NCBI GenBank assembly: GCA_021734905.1 | Contig: JAIPIB010000002.1 | Location: forward strand, 1 to 38,166 | DNA from: Minisyncoccota bacterium | GTDB lineage: Bacteria > Patescibacteriota > Minisyncoccia > Phycocordibacterales > UBA918 | Length of the DNA: 38,166 nt | Direction of reading: 5' to 3' | Shown here: one piece after another, positions 20,333 to 36,020 of the stretch | Layout: each line of letters begins with the position of its first letter | How positions within the stretch are numbered: the stretch's first letter is position 1 | Position numbers and translations under genes: made by a program | Notes under the pieces: generated by a model | The model's input: only the letters and a program-made list of their open reading frames with translations | The model's database searches: none | Told to the model about the DNA's origin: nothing

Positions 20333-23176
20333 ATGCATAAAAAATTTGAACACAAAGAAATAGAAAAGAAGTGGCAAAAAATCTGGAAGGAATCTGGAAT
20401 ATACAATGTTGGTACGAGAGACTTGTCAAGGGAAAAAGAATACGTACTTGTAGAATGGCCATATCCCTCAGGCAATCTCCATATAGGACACTGGTTTGCC
20501 TTTGCTGTTGTAGACATCTACGTGCGAGCACACAGAATGCAAGGGAAGCAAGTCCTTTTTCCTATGGGATTTGACGCTTTTGGTCTACCTGCAGAAAACG
20601 CTGCTATCAAAAGAAATTTAGATCCACGTGCGTGGACTGAATCAAACATTGTTCACATGCGAGAACAACTTGAACAAATGGGAAATGCTTTTTCATGGGA
20701 CAAAACGACGTCATCGACTGATGAAGAGTATTTTGAATGGACACAATGGATCTTCACAAGGTTTTTTGAGAAAGATATTGCGTTTCGAGGTGAAGCTACT
20801 GTTAATTGGTGCCCTGGATGTAACACAGTAATTGCAAATGAGCAGGTGCTCTCAGACGGAACTTGCGAACGTTCAGGAGATGTCGTAGATAAACGAAGCA
20901 TGATGCAGTGGATGCTTAAGATCACTGATTATGCAGACAGGCTCATTAATGACCTCGAACCACTCGACTGGCCAGATCATATTAAGGAATCGCAAAAGCA
21001 ATGGATTGGACGATCATCTGGTGCTGAAATTCCATTCACTCTTTCAACGGGTGACGTTTTGAGTGTTTTTACCACTCGTCCCGACACTCTTTATGGAGCA
21101 ACATATCTCGTACTCGCACCAGAACATGATTTTATAATAAGGAGTAAGAATAAGATTCAAAACTGGGAATCAGTTATAAGATATTCACAAGAAGCATCAC
21201 AAAAAGATGATATTGCCCGTCTCAAATCTGAGAAAGAAAAAACAGGGATAAAACTTGAAGGAATCACAGCAACAAATCCGGCGAATGGTGAAGAAATTCC
21301 TGTTTTCATTGCGGACTACGTACTCAAGGGATACGGCACTGGCATAATTATGGCCGTCCCGGCTCACGATGAGAGAGACTATGCATTTGCGACAAAATTT
21401 AATTTACCTATTAAACAAGTTGTTGTTCCTTGTGCAAACGATTCTCACAATCCACCGAAAAATGACTATGGCGAAGTTAAACGAGATACTATAATCGTTC
21501 ATCTGCGAAATAAGTCTACAGGTAAGTTTGCGCTGCTTAACTGGCACGAGAGTCTTGAAGGAATTACTACTGCAATTATGGGGGGCATTGAGCAGGGACA
21601 AACTGCTGAAGAAGCAGTAATTAATGAAATTAATGAGGAGGCTGGATTGAAGAACATTAAAATTATACATAGATTACCATGGGTTACTGCTGCTCGTTAC
21701 TGTGCTTCACACAAGAACGAAAATAGATGCGCACATTCTTTTGCTTTTATTGCTGAAGTAGAAAATCTTAATAATCAAGAAATAACATCGCAACATGAAC
21801 AGAATTTGCATTCACTTATGTGGGTAGAGGAATCAGAAGTTCTTGACTTACTGACTCCAGACCACCAAAAGCAAGTGTGGAAGATGCTGCATTCTAATGA
21901 GGTTGCAACAGCTCCAGGCTACTTAATGAACTCAGAAGAATTTGATGGCATGAATTCAGAAGAAGCAAAAGTGGCAATTACAGAGAAAGTTGGTGGGAAG
22001 ATGAAGAACACCTATCGGCTCCGAGATTGGTCTATAGGACGTCAACGCTACTGGGGAGTGCCGATTCCAATTGTCTATGATCCAGAAGGGAAGCCGCACG
22101 TAATTCCAAAGGAGTATTTACCATGGAAGCTTCCAACAGATGTGGATTTCAAGCCAACAGGTGAAGCCCCTCTTGCAAAGAGTTCGGAGCTCAAGGAGCG
22201 AGTTGAAAGTATCTTTGGTAAAGGGTGGACACCAGAAGTTGAAACTATGGATACTTTTGTTGATTCATCGTGGTATTTCTTTAGGTATCTTGATGCACAC
22301 AATACTGACTTGTTTTCTTCGAAAGAAAAACAGAATGAGTGGATGCCAATAGATATTTACTTTGGAGGTTCAGAACACAATACGATGCACCTTCTTTACT
22401 CTCGCTTCTTTACAAAAGTTCTCTATGACCTGGGTCTTTCTGCTGTAGACGAGCCATACAAAAAAAGAATCAACCGCGGTCTTGTCCTTGGTCCTGATGG
22501 AAACAAGATGAGTAAATCAAAGGGAAATGTAATCGATCCGGATGAACAGGTGAGTAGGCTCGGTGCAGATACAGTTAAAATGTATCTTGCTTTTATGGGT
22601 CCATACGGTGAGATGGCAGACTATCCGTGGGATATGGGAGGCATCGTTGGTCTTAGACGCTTTCTAGAAAGAGCCTACGGTCTTAGTGAACACATTACTG
22701 AGAGCAATTCTCTTGAAACAGCACGACTACTGCATAAAACAATCGATAAAATAACTCGCGATATTGAACAGTATAAGTTCAATACAGCAATCAGTGCTCT
22801 AATGATCTTTATTAATGCAGTAGAAAAAATAGGCATCTCAAATAATGACTATACTATTTTTCTTAAACTTCTTGCGCCATTTGCTCCACACCTTTCAGAA
22901 GAATTATGGAGTGCGATAGGAAACAAAGGGTCAATACACCAGAGCCAATGGCCTGTAGCAGAGGAAAAATTCCTCTTAGAAGAAACGGCGACAATCGGTG
23001 TACAGATTAACGGTAAAATGCGTGGGAGCATTACAGTTGCTTATGATGCAGATGAGGCTTCTGTGGTCACTGCTCTTACTTCATCGGACGAATACTCAGC
23101 TAAAATTCATAGTGAGATTGCACGAGTCATTTATATCAAAAACAAACTTATCAACATAATTCTCAGCAAAACCTAG
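20333..23176 (+). CDS. leuS: Leucyl-tRNA synthetase with Nudix-like insertion
   Basis: PYPSGNLHIGHW, TRPDTLYGATYLVLAPEH, GYGTGIIMAVPAHDERDYAFA, RLRDWSIGRQRYWGVPIP, KMSKSKGNV; extra segment containing GGIEQGQTAEEAVINEINEEAGL. Confidence 0.97.
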   Translation: MHKKFEHKEIEKKWQKIWKESGIYNVGTRDLSREKEYVLVEWPYPSGNLHIGHWFAFAVVDIYVRAHRMQGKQVLFPMGFDAFGLPAENAAIKRNLDPRAWTESNIVHMREQLEQMGNAFSWDKTTSSTDEEYFEWTQWIFTRFFEKDIAFRGEATVNWCPGCNTVIANEQVLSDGTCERSGDVVDKRSMMQWMLKITDYADRLINDLEPLDWPDHIKESQKQWIGRSSGAEIPFTLSTGDVLSVFTTRPDTLYGATYLVLAPEHDFIIRSKNKIQNWESVIRYSQEASQKDDIARLKSEKEKTGIKLEGITATNPANGEEIPVFIADYVLKGYGTGIIMAVPAHDERDYAFATKFNLPIKQVVVPCANDSHNPPKNDYGEVKRDTIIVHLRNKSTGKFALLNWHESLEGITTAIMGGIEQGQTAEEAVINEINEEAGLKNIKIIHRLPWVTAARYCASHKNENRCAHSFAFIAEVENLNNQEITSQHEQNLHSLMWVEESEVLDLLTPDHQKQVWKMLHSNEVATAPGYLMNSEEFDGMNSEEAKVAITEKVGGKMKNTYRLRDWSIGRQRYWGVPIPIVYDPEGKPHVIPKEYLPWKLPTDVDFKPTGEAPLAKSSELKERVESIFGKGWTPEVETMDTFVDSSWYFFRYLDAHNTDLFSSKEKQNEWMPIDIYFGGSEHNTMHLLYSRFFTKVLYDLGLSAVDEPYKKRINRGLVLGPDGNKMSKSKGNVIDPDEQVSRLGADTVKMYLAFMGPYGEMADYPWDMGGIVGLRRFLERAYGLSEHITESNSLETARLLHKTIDKITRDIEQYKFNTAISALMIFINAVEKIGISNNDYTIFLKLLAPFAPHLSEELWSAIGNKGSIHQSQWPVAEEKFLLEETATIGVQINGKMRGSITVAYDADEASVVTALTSSDEYSAKIHSEIARVIYIKNKLINIILSKT

Positions 23177-23272
23177 ACGGGGAAGTAACTAAAGTTAACG
23201 TTGTCCAGTGACCACTTGACTCTCCTAGATATCCGTGCTAAAAATAACTAACAATTTGGAGGAAATATTACT

Positions 23273-23284
23273 TAAATTATCTGT
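23273..23284 (+). promoter_or_regulatory. -10-like element, TAAATT-N6-ATG
   Basis: TAAATT-atctgt-ATG; weaker hexamer than the others. Confidence 0.35.
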
Positions 23285-24310
23285 ATGATCACATTTAAAC
23301 CAAAGACAGTAACAAAAAGGCTGCTTTCTGTGCTGCCACCGCGTGCCCGCGATGTACTTGAAAAGCGGTATGGTTTGGGTGTCACATCAGAAACTCATAC
23401 ACTTGAGTCAATTGGAAAGACATACGGTGTAACCCGAGAAAGAGTCAGACAAATTGAGAATTACGGAATTCAAGCGATACAAAAATCTGATGTCTACGCA
23501 GAATTCAACGATGCAATTGATGAGCTCAAAAACGCATTCGAGTCATTGGGTGGAGTAATTAGTGAGACTGATCTTTTCAATGAACTTTCTAAAGACTCAT
23601 CACTTCATAATCATCTTTATTTTATTCTTGTTGTTGGAGATCCTTTCAAAAGAATTAAGGAAGATACCTCATTTAACTATCGATGGTGTCTTGAGAAGAA
23701 AGTTTCTGAAACTGTAGAAGCTGCACTCAAAAATATTTTTGAATCACTGGGAGAGGACGATCTTGTTTCTGAAAGCGAAATAATTGCCAGACTTAAAAAT
23801 GAACTCGGTGAAATTGAAGAAGATCTTAAGAATGAAACAATTCTTAAGAGGTGGTTGTCAATATCAAAACAAATTGATAAAAATCCACTCGGAGAATGGG
23901 GACCTGCATCAAGTCCAAATGTCCGAGCAAAAGGAATTCGTGATTATGCATACCTAGCTGTGAAAAGACATGGTTCTCCAATGCACTTTAAGGAAGTTGC
24001 TGATTCTATTAAAGAACTTTTTAATAAGAAGGCTCATATTGCAACTACTCATAATGAATTGATTAAGGACAAAAGATTCATTCTCGTCGGGCGCGGCCTT
24101 TACGCACTTTCTGAGTGGGGGTATTCTGCAGGAGTTGTAAAAGATGTTTTGCGAGATATTCTCAATACGCACGGACCACTCACACGTGAAGAAATTATTG
24201 ATAAAGTCAGAAAAGAACGATATGTTAAAGACAATACTATTATCGTCAATCTTCAAGATGTAGCGCTTTTCAAGAAACTATCTGATGGAAATTACATGCT
24301 TGTTGAATAA
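23285..24310 (+). CDS. Sigma-70 region-4-like HTH protein with C-terminal HARE-HTH-like domain
   Basis: LPPRARDVLEKRYGLG...HTLESIGKTYGVTRERVRQIENYGIQAI (sigma region 4.2 hallmark); C-terminal YLAVKRHGSPMHFKEVADSIKELFNKKAHIATTHNELIKDKRFILVGRGLYALSEWGY resembles HARE-HTH. Confidence 0.82.
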   Translation: MITFKPKTVTKRLLSVLPPRARDVLEKRYGLGVTSETHTLESIGKTYGVTRERVRQIENYGIQAIQKSDVYAEFNDAIDELKNAFESLGGVISETDLFNELSKDSSLHNHLYFILVVGDPFKRIKEDTSFNYRWCLEKKVSETVEAALKNIFESLGEDDLVSESEIIARLKNELGEIEEDLKNETILKRWLSISKQIDKNPLGEWGPASSPNVRAKGIRDYAYLAVKRHGSPMHFKEVADSIKELFNKKAHIATTHNELIKDKRFILVGRGLYALSEWGYSAGVVKDVLRDILNTHGPLTREEIIDKVRKERYVKDNTIIVNLQDVALFKKLSDGNYMLVE

Positions 24311-24319
24311 CAAACCCAC

Positions 24320-24359
24320 ACAAACCCCCGAAAAGGCTTCTGCCTTTTCGGGGGTTTGT
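24320..24359. terminator. Rho-independent terminator
   Basis: Perfect 18-bp stem acaaacccccgaaaaggc-ttct-gccttttcgggggtttgt. Confidence 0.92.
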
Positions 24360-24361
24360 TG

Positions 24362-24373
24362 TACAATAGTTGG
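24362..24373 (+). promoter_or_regulatory. -10 element, TACAAT-N6-ATG, directly after the terminator
   Basis: TACAAT-agttgg-ATG. Confidence 0.5.
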
Positions 24374-25714
24374 ATGATCCATTTTATAGAAGCCCCGATC
24401 CATTTTTTGGAAAATCTTGGTGTAAACGTAAAGTGGCTGCTCATTGTTGTTGGCTTTGGACTAGTTTATATAATTTTTACTCTTTTCGATTTTAAGTCAA
24501 ACCAAATCATAGAAGTACTGCTTGCCTCAGCACCTCTATGGCTACCTGTAGTAACATTTGTGTTATTTTTTGATCAATGGCTTGAATATGTAAGAAAGGA
24601 ATTTGATTTGAACCAGGGACGTGTAACACTTGAAATTAAACTTCCACAAGACATTTTCAAATCACCGGAAGCAATGGAACTTGTACTGACGCAGCTTCAT
24701 CAATCAGCCTCTCCGGATAACCACATCCAGACATATTTTGACGGGAAGCATCCTCCAAGGTATGGTCTTGAAATAATATCGCGTGGAGGCGATGTGCGTT
24801 TTTATTTAAGCGTCCCCAGAAAAAAATTTAAGAATATAGCTGAAACGCAGCTATATTCACAATATCCAGGAATAGAGGTGCACGAACTTGATATCGATTA
24901 CACAGCAGAAATTCCATGGGATAAGTCTAGATTTTCTTACTTTTCAATGCATTTTAGTCCAAAGAAAGAGGACGCCTATCCGATTAAGACCTATATCGAG
25001 TACGAGCTCCATAAGATGCCAAAAGAAGAAGAGAAAATTGACCCGATTACTTCTATGCTCGAAATGCTCGGAAGTATGGGCCCTGGTGAATATGTATGGA
25101 TACAAATACTTATTGACGCAAATAGAAAGACATCCTTCAAAGAAGGTTCACTAAAAACCCATCAGGACTGGACTGATGATGCTCGGACAGAAATTAAAAA
25201 GATTATTGAAAACGCAGCAAAAAGAGTCGGAGTTAGCAGTGATGGAATTGGAACAAATGTTAACCAGTTGCTGACGGATGCTGAAAAAGACACAATCAAA
25301 GCCATCGAAAGGAGTCTTGGAAAGAATGCTTTCAACACAACTATTCGAGCGATGTATATTGCACAAAAAGATGCTTTTGCACCTGGTGAAAAAATTGGCG
25401 CAATTATAACTGGATGGCGCGCATACGATGACCTAAACAGAAATGCTATTGGTGTAAGGTGGCGAACTGATTTTGATTGGAATTGGTGGCAGGACCCACA
25501 TGGACACCATGCTGACATGCTCAAAAAACAAGAGCTTGATGAGTACAAACGAAGAGTTTACACAAGCCAAAGTAGTAAGGACGGGGAAAAAGTATTCACC
25601 ACTGAAGAATTGGCTACGATTTTTCATTTTCCTGGAAAGGTTGCCTTTACTCCTTCGTTGGCTCGTATTCCATCAAAGCGCGCAGAACCTCCGTCAAATT
25701 TACCTATTGGCTAA
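24374..25714 (+). CDS. Membrane-anchored protein resembling the domain that accompanies VirD4/HerA-type (DUF87) ATPases in CPR bacteria
   Basis: N-terminal TM helices; C-terminal FTTEELATIFHFPGKVAFTPSLARIPSKRAEPPSNLPIG; start at ATG 24374 preferred over TTG 24356. Confidence 0.55.
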   Translation: MIHFIEAPIHFLENLGVNVKWLLIVVGFGLVYIIFTLFDFKSNQIIEVLLASAPLWLPVVTFVLFFDQWLEYVRKEFDLNQGRVTLEIKLPQDIFKSPEAMELVLTQLHQSASPDNHIQTYFDGKHPPRYGLEIISRGGDVRFYLSVPRKKFKNIAETQLYSQYPGIEVHELDIDYTAEIPWDKSRFSYFSMHFSPKKEDAYPIKTYIEYELHKMPKEEEKIDPITSMLEMLGSMGPGEYVWIQILIDANRKTSFKEGSLKTHQDWTDDARTEIKKIIENAAKRVGVSSDGIGTNVNQLLTDAEKDTIKAIERSLGKNAFNTTIRAMYIAQKDAFAPGEKIGAIITGWRAYDDLNRNAIGVRWRTDFDWNWWQDPHGHHADMLKKQELDEYKRRVYTSQSSKDGEKVFTTEELATIFHFPGKVAFTPSLARIPSKRAEPPSNLPIG

Positions 25715-25717
25715 TTT

Positions 25718-26698
25718 ATGTTTTTTGAGCTTTATTCACAAAACATAAAAGTTATTAAAAAAAAATATATTCTATATTTTTTTACTGCATTTGCATTTTC
25801 TTTTGTTTTTGTAATTTTACTATTTAATTTCATCAATGAAGCACCTAGAAATTTTCCTGTAGCAACAGACATTACCATCGAAGATGGTATGACTCTTAAC
25901 GAAATAACAAAATTGCTAGGCGAAGTAAACGTAATTCGCTCACCGCTTTATTTTTATTTTCTTGTGTCACATTCTTTCAAAAATGCGTATATTCAAGCTG
26001 GGACATATTCGTTTCCAATACCATTAACATCAAAAGATGTGGCAGATAAAATTACAAGCGGAAGAAACACCAAACCGTTGCTTAAGGTTACCTTTCCTGA
26101 GGGTTTCAAAGCAAAAAATCTTCATAGTTTTTTGCCAGAGACATACTCAAACATACCTACTGAGTCATTTTCTCAGTATGAAGGATATCTTTTTCCTGAC
26201 ACATATTTTATTTCAAAAGATATGCCGTTTCAAGAACTTGTTAAACTTATGCAAGTAACATTTATAGAAAAAATTGAGCCACTTATACCACAAATTGAAT
26301 CATCAAAATTTACATTAGATGAGGTAGTTATACTCGCTTCTATTATTGAACGTGAAGCAAAAGATCTTGAATCAAAAAAGATGGTATCTGGTATTTTGCA
26401 AAATAGATTAGCAAAAAACATGCCTCTGCAAGTTGATGCGAGTCTTGATTTTATTTTAGATAAGACAAGTGAAGAACTTACTCTCGATGATTTATCAGTT
26501 GATTCACCCTATAATAGTTACATAAATAGAGGACTTCCCCCGACACCAATCGCAAATCCTGGACTCGAATCACTAATGGCAGTTCTTGAGCCTATAAATT
26601 CTGACAACATCTATTACCTTACTGGAAATGATGGTATGTTCTATTATGCGAAAACTTTTGAGGAACACAAAAAGAATAAGAAACGTTACCTAGAATAA
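25718..26698 (+). CDS. mltG: Endolytic murein transglycosylase MltG (YceG-like)
   Basis: N-terminal TM, FPEGFKAKNL, EGYLFPDTYFI, VILASIIEREAKD, VSGILQNRLAKNMPLQVDASLDF, SPYNSYINRGLPPTPIANPGLESL. Confidence 0.95.
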   Translation: MFFELYSQNIKVIKKKYILYFFTAFAFSFVFVILLFNFINEAPRNFPVATDITIEDGMTLNEITKLLGEVNVIRSPLYFYFLVSHSFKNAYIQAGTYSFPIPLTSKDVADKITSGRNTKPLLKVTFPEGFKAKNLHSFLPETYSNIPTESFSQYEGYLFPDTYFISKDMPFQELVKLMQVTFIEKIEPLIPQIESSKFTLDEVVILASIIEREAKDLESKKMVSGILQNRLAKNMPLQVDASLDFILDKTSEELTLDDLSVDSPYNSYINRGLPPTPIANPGLESLMAVLEPINSDNIYYLTGNDGMFYYAKTFEEHKKNKKRYLE

Positions 26699-34079: not shown

Positions 34080-36020
34080 ATGACTGGAAATGACGTTCGA
34101 GCAAAGTTTTTGACATACATGGAAAAACGTGGCCATGCGCTGATTCCATCATCCTCTCTTGTTCCAGAAAATGACCCCACGACGCTTTTTACTGGGAGCG
34201 GGATGCAACCACTCATTCCTTTCCTTATGGGTGAGTCCCACCCAATGGGTACACGTTTGATGGATTCTCAACGATGTTTTCGCGCTGAGGATATAGAAGA
34301 AGTTGGTGACAATAGACACACTACTTTTTTTGAGATGCTTGGGAATTGGTCTCTTGGTGATTACTTTAAGGACGAGCAGATATCTTGGATGTTTGAATTT
34401 CTGATTGATGAATTAGGCCTGAACCCTGAGAAATTATATATCACGGCTTTCATAGGTGATAAAGTAAACAAAGTGCCAAAAGACACTGAATCTGCAGAAC
34501 TGTGGAAACAACTTTTTCATAAGAAACAAATCGTTGCAGAAGTTGCTGACATGAATACTGAAGAGGAAGCTTCGCAACGAGGAATGAAAGCTGGAGAACG
34601 TATTTTCTATTATAATGCAAAAAAGAATTGGTGGTCGCGTTCTGGTGGTCCTGAGAAAATGCCTGTGGGTGAAATTGGTGGTCCGGATACTGAGATGTTT
34701 TATGATTTTGGCTTACCTCATGATAAAAAATATGGAGAATTCTGTCACCCAAACTGCGACTGTGGGAGATTTATGGAAATTGGAAACAACGTCTTTATTG
34801 AATATGTAAAAAATGAAGATGGCGCATTTAAAAAATTACCAAAAAGAAATGTAGATTTTGGAGGAGGTCTAGAACGAATTGCTGCTGCAGTAAATGACAA
34901 TGCTGATGTTTTTGAAGTTGATCTGCTCAAAAACATAATTGAGAGACTTGAACTACTTTCTGGAAAAAAATATTTTGATTATCCTTTAGCTTTTCGAATT
35001 ATCGCTGACCATATTCGAGGAGCTGTATTCATGATTAGTGATGGAGTATACCCCAGCAACACTGAACAAGGCTACTTCACACGAAGACTACTCCGGAGAG
35101 CTGTTCGCTATGCGGACACCCTTGAGGTGCCAAATGGGGAGTTAAAGGTACTTGCTAAAACTGTAATTGATATATTTAAGGATCACTACGTTCAGATTGC
35201 TGAACGTGAATCAGATATCATTGAGAGCATTTTTGCAGAGGAGATACAATTTCGCAAAACACTCGAACAAGGACTTAAGGAATTTAACAAAGTCGCACTC
35301 AAACTCACAATTCCAGTTAAAAAAGTTAACGGAAAAGTTGTTTCTGATTCTTCAAAGAAGCCGACGCAACAAAAATTCATTACAGGTGAAAGTGCATTCA
35401 ATCTTTTTACCACATATGGTTTTCCAATTGAGCTCACTATCGAGATAGCTAAGGAACGAGGCATGACTGTTGCACTAGACGAATTTAAAACTTGCATGGA
35501 TAAGCATCGTGAGTTATCAAGAACAAGTTCAGAGCAAAAGTTTAAAGGTGGCCTCGCTGATCATGGAAATAGGGTGGTCATGTACCACACAGCCACACAT
35601 CTGCTCTTAGCAGGACTTCGCAAAGAGCTTGGGGACTCTGTGCATCAGGCTGGTTCCAATATTACAAATGAACGTCTACGTTTTGACTTTACCTACGATG
35701 AGAAAGTCACAGATGACATACTAAAGAAAGTTGAAGAATACGTTAACACAGCAATCCGAAACGACTTACCTGTGGCAATTGAGACACTTTCGAAGATAGA
35801 TGCTGAAAATGATCCCACAATTGAAGGGAGCTTTTGGAATAAGTATCCTGATCAAGTGAAAGTTTATACCATAAAGAATTCTCAGGGTGAAATATGTTCT
35901 CGTGAATTATGCGGTGGACCACATGTTGAAAATACGTCAGCTATGCAAGGAACTTTTAAAATCATCAAAGAAGAATCTTCATCTCGAGGTGTTCGACGTA
36001 TTAAGGCAATTCTCGATTAA
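34080..36020 (+). CDS. alaS: Alanyl-tRNA synthetase (lacks C-Ala domain)
   Basis: VRAKFLTYMEKRGHALIPSSSLVPENDPTTLFTGSGMQP, NVDFGGGLERIAAA, HTATHLLLAGLRKELG, CSRELCGGPHVENT; ends at 646 aa after the editing domain. Confidence 0.96.
   Translation: MTGNDVRAKFLTYMEKRGHALIPSSSLVPENDPTTLFTGSGMQPLIPFLMGESHPMGTRLMDSQRCFRAEDIEEVGDNRHTTFFEMLGNWSLGDYFKDEQISWMFEFLIDELGLNPEKLYITAFIGDKVNKVPKDTESAELWKQLFHKKQIVAEVADMNTEEEASQRGMKAGERIFYYNAKKNWWSRSGGPEKMPVGEIGGPDTEMFYDFGLPHDKKYGEFCHPNCDCGRFMEIGNNVFIEYVKNEDGAFKKLPKRNVDFGGGLERIAAAVNDNADVFEVDLLKNIIERLELLSGKKYFDYPLAFRIIADHIRGAVFMISDGVYPSNTEQGYFTRRLLRRAVRYADTLEVPNGELKVLAKTVIDIFKDHYVQIAERESDIIESIFAEEIQFRKTLEQGLKEFNKVALKLTIPVKKVNGKVVSDSSKKPTQQKFITGESAFNLFTTYGFPIELTIEIAKERGMTVALDEFKTCMDKHRELSRTSSEQKFKGGLADHGNRVVMYHTATHLLLAGLRKELGDSVHQAGSNITNERLRFDFTYDEKVTDDILKKVEEYVNTAIRNDLPVAIETLSKIDAENDPTIEGSFWNKYPDQVKVYTIKNSQGEICSRELCGGPHVENTSAMQGTFKIIKEESSSRGVRRIKAILD

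Follow-up and report, generated by a model that had tools for sequence, protein, structure and literature searches.

A Nudix-fold domain nested in the editing domain of a Patescibacterial leucyl-tRNA synthetase represents a wider pattern of exchangeable synthetase inserts

The window analyzed here, a stretch of 38,166 nt from the genome of a Minisyncoccota bacterium, encodes a complete leucyl-tRNA synthetase (LeuRS) which carries a Nudix-fold domain within a variable loop of its own editing domain. This insert is an exchangeable module common to many synthetases and constitutes one case of a wider pattern. With a probability of roughly 0.6, we read the domain from its sequence as a working hydrolase and as one of several interchangeable synthetase cassettes that were probably spread by recombination and are likely to clear nucleotide-type compounds.

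Few enzymes are as conserved as the aminoacyl-tRNA synthetases, which usually gain domains slowly and keep them as fixed traits of a lineage. The enzymes nested in the middle of three essential synthetases of Patescibacteria differ greatly from one another, and those in LeuRS are replaced even between proteins of one genus whose remaining sequence is 90% identical. Such cassette exchange offers a clear handle on the acquisition of enzyme functions by bacteria with minimal genomes.

Results

The host LeuRS and the position of the insert

In a profile search, the 947-aa product of the open reading frame (Table 1) reached 876.6 bits against the bacterial LeuRS model TIGR00396 (leuS_bact), exceeding the curated cut-off of 548, and the HIGH, KMSKS and editing motifs are all present, which places the protein among bacterial LeuRS. 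A LeuRS query gave a single match across the window's own genome. The full-length structure model (pLDDT 90) resembles LeuRS-tRNA structures (2bte, TM-score 0.82). In the alignment with LeuRS of Thermus thermophilus, residues 4-366 of the query correspond to residues 3-364, the alignment then breaks, and it resumes with query residue 527 at residue 379. The net surplus of the window LeuRS at this break is about 146 residues; T. thermophilus has a loop of only about 15 residues there, which rules out that the segment is a normal CP1 or zinc subdomain. Elsewhere in the window (34080-36020), an alanyl-tRNA synthetase of only 646 aa stops at the SAD domain, its usual C-terminal region apparently missing.

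Table 1. Features of the LeuRS gene and its Nudix insert, in positions of the window
Feature	Residues	Position	Strand	Evidence
LeuRS gene, host of the insert	947 aa	20333..23176	+	ORF; TIGR00396; alignment; structure match; single genome match
HIGH motif, synthetic site, intact	50-53	20480..20491	+	H50, G52 and H53 invariant in alignment of 44 LeuRS
CP1 editing domain of LeuRS, portion preceding the insert	222-372	20996..21448	+	PF13603, E 1.6e-57
HDERD motif of editing site, intact	345-349	21365..21379	+	ORF translation; LeuRS alignment
Inserted segment, LeuRS insertion site B	366-527	21428..21913	+	T. thermophilus alignment; site mapping
Nudix domain proper	381-520	21473..21892	+	PF00293 aa 391-512; secondary structure of the model; Foldseek
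Nudix box GGIEQGQTAEEAVINEINEEAGL	417-439	21581..21649	+	ORF translation; insert alignments
Q423, replaces first Glu of the box	423	21599..21601	+	Alignment of 67 inserts
N431, replaces Arg of the box	431	21623..21625	+	Alignment of 67 inserts
Expected metal-binding glutamates, kept	E432, E435, E436	21626..21640	+	Alignment of 44 LeuRS; 67 inserts
HKxxNR signature of the inserted Nudix family	460-465	21710..21727	+	K461 nearly invariant; K/N/R columns
KMSKS motif, intact	725-729	22505..22519	+	ORF translation; LeuRS alignment

Profile and fold of the inserted domain

The original prediction had placed a Nudix-like domain in the CP1 editing region of LeuRS, and sequence, profile and fold agree in supporting it. 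The Pfam family NUDIX (PF00293) matches residues 391-512 with an E-value of 9.4e-9 and 35.8 bits, above the gathering cut-off of 21.1, so that the domain belongs to the Nudix superfamily by this score; the insert segment searched alone against the same family gave an E-value of 1.3e-9. An AlphaFold model of the insert, built on an alignment of 55 inserts, has a mean pLDDT of 94.2 and arranges its strands about the box helix in a Nudix-like order, corresponding to the alpha/beta/alpha sandwich of the Nudix fold in this predicted structure. Foldseek returned 539 matches in the PDB at E<=0.001; among the matches listed, all are Nudix proteins, including 2azw, NUDT15, Ap4A hydrolases and RppH at E-values of 5e-7 to 4e-9. 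With the NCBIfam equivalog models for RppH, NudC and MutT, the domain stays below every cut-off (best NF001936, 29.1 bits versus 118).

Catalytic residues and selection

The predicted location of the Nudix box proved correct, as did its departures from the strict consensus Gx5Ex7REUxEExGU, namely Q for the first Glu and N for the Arg, the three metal-binding glutamates of the REUxEE core (E and EE) being retained. The equivalents of E432, E435 and E436 occur in 67/67, 65/67 and 66/67 inserts, respectively, and are invariant in the alignment of 44 LeuRS. The first Glu and the Arg of the box, which in Nudix enzymes help to position the catalytic loop and are not metal ligands, are both intact in 55 of the 67 inserts. 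Among the 12 departures, both residues are lost together in seven (Fisher p 2.9e-6, with no correction for phylogeny). A joint loss of this kind is seen in the window (Q, N), L009 (Q, Q), L050 (Q, A), L062 (Q, S), the site-A insert of L070 (Q, A) and L262 (Q, A). This recurrence rules out a degeneration of the box private to the window. Since the two lost residues are not expected to bind metal, activity of the window domain is plausible, if not certain.

When inherited vertically with their host, the inserts are strongly conserved and under purifying selection: in co-inherited pairs where it could be estimated, dN/dS of the inserts is 0.01-0.10 and similar to that of the synthetase body. Complete conservation, or nearly so, of the three glutamates together with these low ratios favors an active over a degenerate fold. 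Some copies may nevertheless be inactive, since the window carries Q423 and N431 and the Nudix-looking insert of L183, a LeuRS from gut Bacilli, lacks a recognizable box.

Distribution of the inserted Nudix family

The original prediction called for a survey of LeuRS across Patescibacteria, and the insert recurs there; across 67 inserts, the metal-binding glutamates are nearly invariant. Most sequences come from draft genomes and probable MAGs, and the loci were chosen non-randomly. At E<=1.6e-31, a profile of the insert matched 35 of 239 genomes of the phylum (about 15%); 34 of the matches lie in open reading frames of LeuRS size, among them one at site A (G269), and one lies in a valyl-tRNA synthetase (ValRS; G182, L107). 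Free-standing members of the family were absent from the 239 genomes at this threshold, the best free-standing Nudix protein scoring 1.2e-22. Judged from these profile matches, the Nudix family has so far been seen solely inside synthetases, namely at sites A and B of LeuRS and in one ValRS. In a second, overlapping sample, we counted a Nudix domain at site B in 17 of 114 LeuRS, and about 30 of the same 114 are at least 900 aa long or otherwise insert-bearing. A full-length match was obtained for 19 of the 49 genomes in the family to which the window belongs.

Named records with the inserted Nudix domain come from Parcubacteria, Moraniibacteriota, an unclassified Patescibacterium, a further bacterium (L188) and MAGs of gut Bacilli/Tenericutes; since the named collection was scanned with insert-derived peptides, these records give no prevalence. 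A phage search yielded nothing beyond a weak match to an ordinary Nudix protein. In L124 and L118, a sequence which by eye is NusB-like lies in frame upstream of the Nudix domain. Two open reading frames of about 350 aa (G140:C20 8469-9470 and G085:C1 126317-127318) match both Ham1 and Nudix and are apparent Ham1-Nudix fusions.

Exchange and co-inheritance

On a tree of 194 LeuRS bodies, from which the columns of sites A and B were excluded, the presence of Nudix at site B changes no fewer than 38 times, against a mean of 56 (range 47-63) for shuffled states. In L020, the sister of the window LeuRS and from the same genus, site B holds a domain with a GFWNEY motif, and in L023, the next relative, it is empty. 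Identities of body and insert are hardly correlated (Spearman 0.12, 65 sequences). The sharpest case is the pair L263/L272 with bodies 90% identical and insert segments only about 34% identical between sharp breakpoints, the nucleotide identity across the insert passing from about 80% to 34-50% and back to 84%. Other pairs are co-inherited, with body and insert identities of 91% and 96% (L014/L015), 98% and 99% (L072/L073) and 84% and 83% (L045/L054).

In AU tests, a single insert clade was rejected for L009+L014+L015 (p 0.008) and for family f45 (p 0.004) and was not rejected for f68 (p 0.099); these p-values are optimistic, because the groups were picked after a tree had been seen. In the insert tree, the ValRS copy and two copies from LeuRS site A are nested among the site-B copies. 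On long branches apart from the main family, L017/L018, L081/L084 and L064 may derive from other Nudix origins. Taken as sequence evidence, the comparisons demonstrate replacement in place by a distant homologous Nudix domain, by unrelated domains or by nothing.

Other enzyme cassettes in LeuRS, IleRS and ValRS

Four insertion sites were mapped in LeuRS: A at about 241, B at about 370, C at about 431 and D at about 505 (numbering of the insert-less LeuRS L022). Pfam families found in these inserts are Ser_hydrolase (A, B, C), Ham1 (A), HAD (A, and also behind Nudix at B in L085), ASCH (A), methyltransferase (B), nucleotidyltransferase (D) and Nudix (A, B). The extreme, with up to five inserted domains in one LeuRS, is L080 (G033:C23), a fragment of 1687 aa in which all of sites A-D are occupied, by HAD + Ham1, Nudix, a Ham1-like domain (by eye) and a nucleotidyltransferase. 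The LeuRS L092, L089 and L093 display ASCH at site A, a SAM methyltransferase at site B and a domain of about 180 aa lacking an assignment at site D. Five LeuRS of 769-811 aa (G054:C1, G116:C2, G135:C1, G040:C11, G063:C45) have a profile match that breaks off near 355-400, approximately at site B, and resumes after few or no residues; their editing domains may be shortened.

The window genome also encodes an isoleucyl-tRNA synthetase (IleRS) of 1193 aa (G000:C9 approximately 22696-26274; L127:197-3775) with a histidine phosphatase at site C, placed after SRQRYWGAPLPIW (PF00300, E 5e-37). One genome (G075) has GNAT and histidine phosphatase domains in its IleRS (L130) and two histidine phosphatases in tandem in its ValRS (L132). 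IleRS of 1441-1480 aa (L148, L149, L155) each gave two histidine phosphatase matches, and in the ValRS L107 the inserted Nudix domain occupies site C, far from the editing domain. The large open reading frames checked are IleRS or ValRS where they contain a histidine phosphatase and LeuRS where they contain Ser_hydrolase, with the exception of dehydrogenase fusions and lipase-like secreted proteins. L146 and L147 are, by eye, phosphoglycerate-dehydrogenase-like proteins with a histidine phosphatase at the C-terminus.

The GFWNEY-motif domain comprises about 110 aa and occurs in the LeuRS L020, L036, L077, L101, L186 and L261 at site A or B. A genome scan found it in two of 192 genomes, in LeuRS both times. 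It has no relative in Pfam or the PDB, and a scan of a viral collection did not reveal one either. L103, and perhaps L096, are possibly distant members (hhalign for L103: E 4e-4 at a probability of only 37). Because synthetases are the only context found for the LeuRS Nudix family and the GFWNEY domain, the function of both can be asked about directly.

Discussion

The preferred explanation comprises several steps. E432, E435 and E436 would enable Mg2+-dependent hydrolysis of a nucleoside-diphosphate-type bond. The domain would belong to a group of enzyme cassettes that can replace one another in LeuRS, IleRS and ValRS of Patescibacteria, and these cassettes would spread through homologous recombination in the conserved synthetase sequence flanking them. 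The least certain step concerns the job itself, the likeliest being the clearing of dinucleoside polyphosphates or adenylate-like inhibitors that differ among habitats; compounds varying in this way would explain the rapid turnover. The presence of hydrolases, an acetyltransferase, a methyltransferase and a nucleotidyltransferase among the inserts argues against a single substrate common to all of them.

Of the alternatives, the one that survives best regards the inserts as ordinary house-cleaning enzymes that settled by chance in loops tolerant of insertion. Within an essential gene of high expression they would be hard to delete, and they would act independently of aminoacylation. It is possible, though clearly less probable than the hydrolase reading. 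The sharing of sites by unrelated enzyme families, the crowding of L080 and the house-cleaning character of several inserts (Nudix, Ham1, HAD, histidine phosphatase) all fit it. For general cargo, however, it would be odd that the main Nudix family and the GFWNEY domain are found only inside synthetases, and that large open reading frames with His_Phos_1, Ser_hydrolase or the inserted Nudix are almost all LeuRS, IleRS or ValRS.

The original prediction suggested that the Nudix domain could hydrolyze aminoacyl-AMP or Ap4A. We regard it as unlikely that the domain acts on compounds made by LeuRS itself, such as Leu-AMP, norvalyl-AMP or Ap4A. The location within the editing domain, the Ap4A hydrolases and RppH among the closest folds and the dedication of the family to synthetases speak for such a clean-up, but most LeuRS of the phylum have a normal editing domain and no insert, unrelated enzymes take the place of Nudix at the same site, and in ValRS the same family lies remote from the editing domain. 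A fixed role in post-transfer editing is made less likely by how rapidly unrelated enzymes replace one another at these sites, and the unrelated chemistries at shared sites favor, with moderate confidence, a general detoxification-type cassette over such a role. As to the choice between an active hydrolase and a degenerate sensor, which the prediction had left undecided, conservation across the 67 inserts and dN/dS favor the active fold.

A similarly low probability is assigned to immunity, in which the cassettes would inactivate nucleotide or aminoacyl-adenylate antibiotics directed against LeuRS, IleRS and ValRS, and the turnover would reflect an arms race. Acetyltransferases act on processed microcin C. 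Exchange inside one genus, the restriction of the hosts seen to branched-chain synthetases and the GNAT insert in the IleRS L130, for which NCBI has a corresponding model (NF040702, ileS_w_GNAT), agree with immunity. Against it, neither an inhibitor nor its producer nor a resistance phenotype is known from these uncultured lineages, and PADLOC matched the window LeuRS to no defense family.

It is likewise doubtful that the domain has become a degenerate, purely structural or sensing module in the window genome. Q423 and N431 and the box-less insert of L183 point in this direction, but the retained glutamates, the sharing of the Q and Arg-loss pattern with five other inserts and the very low dN/dS of other inserts speak against it. 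An assembly or gene-calling artefact, conceivable as most sequences stem from draft and probably metagenome-assembled genomes, is ruled out by reading frames that stay open and in frame across more than 60 genomes, of which several consist of a single contig (G020, G187, G222, G355).

Beyond the preferred reading of the insert as a hydrolase cassette, we tentatively propose a broader picture, in which, both in Patescibacteria and in some gut Bacilli, the branched-chain aminoacyl-tRNA synthetases could serve as a docking platform for exchangeable cassettes at few fixed sites, including domain families restricted to synthetases, and thereby form an adaptive system for detoxification, immunity or regulation. 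No description of LeuRS or other aminoacyl-tRNA synthetases together with a Nudix domain, a histidine phosphatase, domain insertion or CPR/Patescibacteria was found in the open-access papers searched. InterPro or UniProt may already list the bare architecture.

Comparison with known systems

With canonical bacterial LeuRS (TIGR00396; T. thermophilus 1h3n/2bte), the window protein shares all core domains and the HIGH, KMSKS and editing motifs, and it differs in having the Nudix domain in place of the short loop at about 365-379 (T. thermophilus numbering). Nudix hydrolases, especially of the Ap4A hydrolase and RppH types (PF00293), have in common with the insert the fold, the position of the box and the catalytic glutamates, as well as the profile and Foldseek matches; unlike them, the window domain is nested in a synthetase, bears the HKxxNR signature and has Q and N at two box positions. 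A survey based on ECOD described the LeuRS editing domain itself as an insertion module of class I synthetases (PMC13114784). Both cases are domain insertions, the window LeuRS having a further enzyme nested within that editing domain. Inteins in essential genes resemble the cassettes as extra domains with fixed sites and a patchy distribution, whereas the cassettes are whole enzyme domains in which Pfam recognizes no splicing domain; the absence of a self-splicing Hint domain among the Pfam matches rules out an intein. The IleRS with a GNAT domain, already named by NCBI (NF040702), is also a class Ia synthetase with an extra enzyme domain; in the window, both host and domain are different, and the NCBIfam model itself bears no sign of exchangeable sites or turnover.
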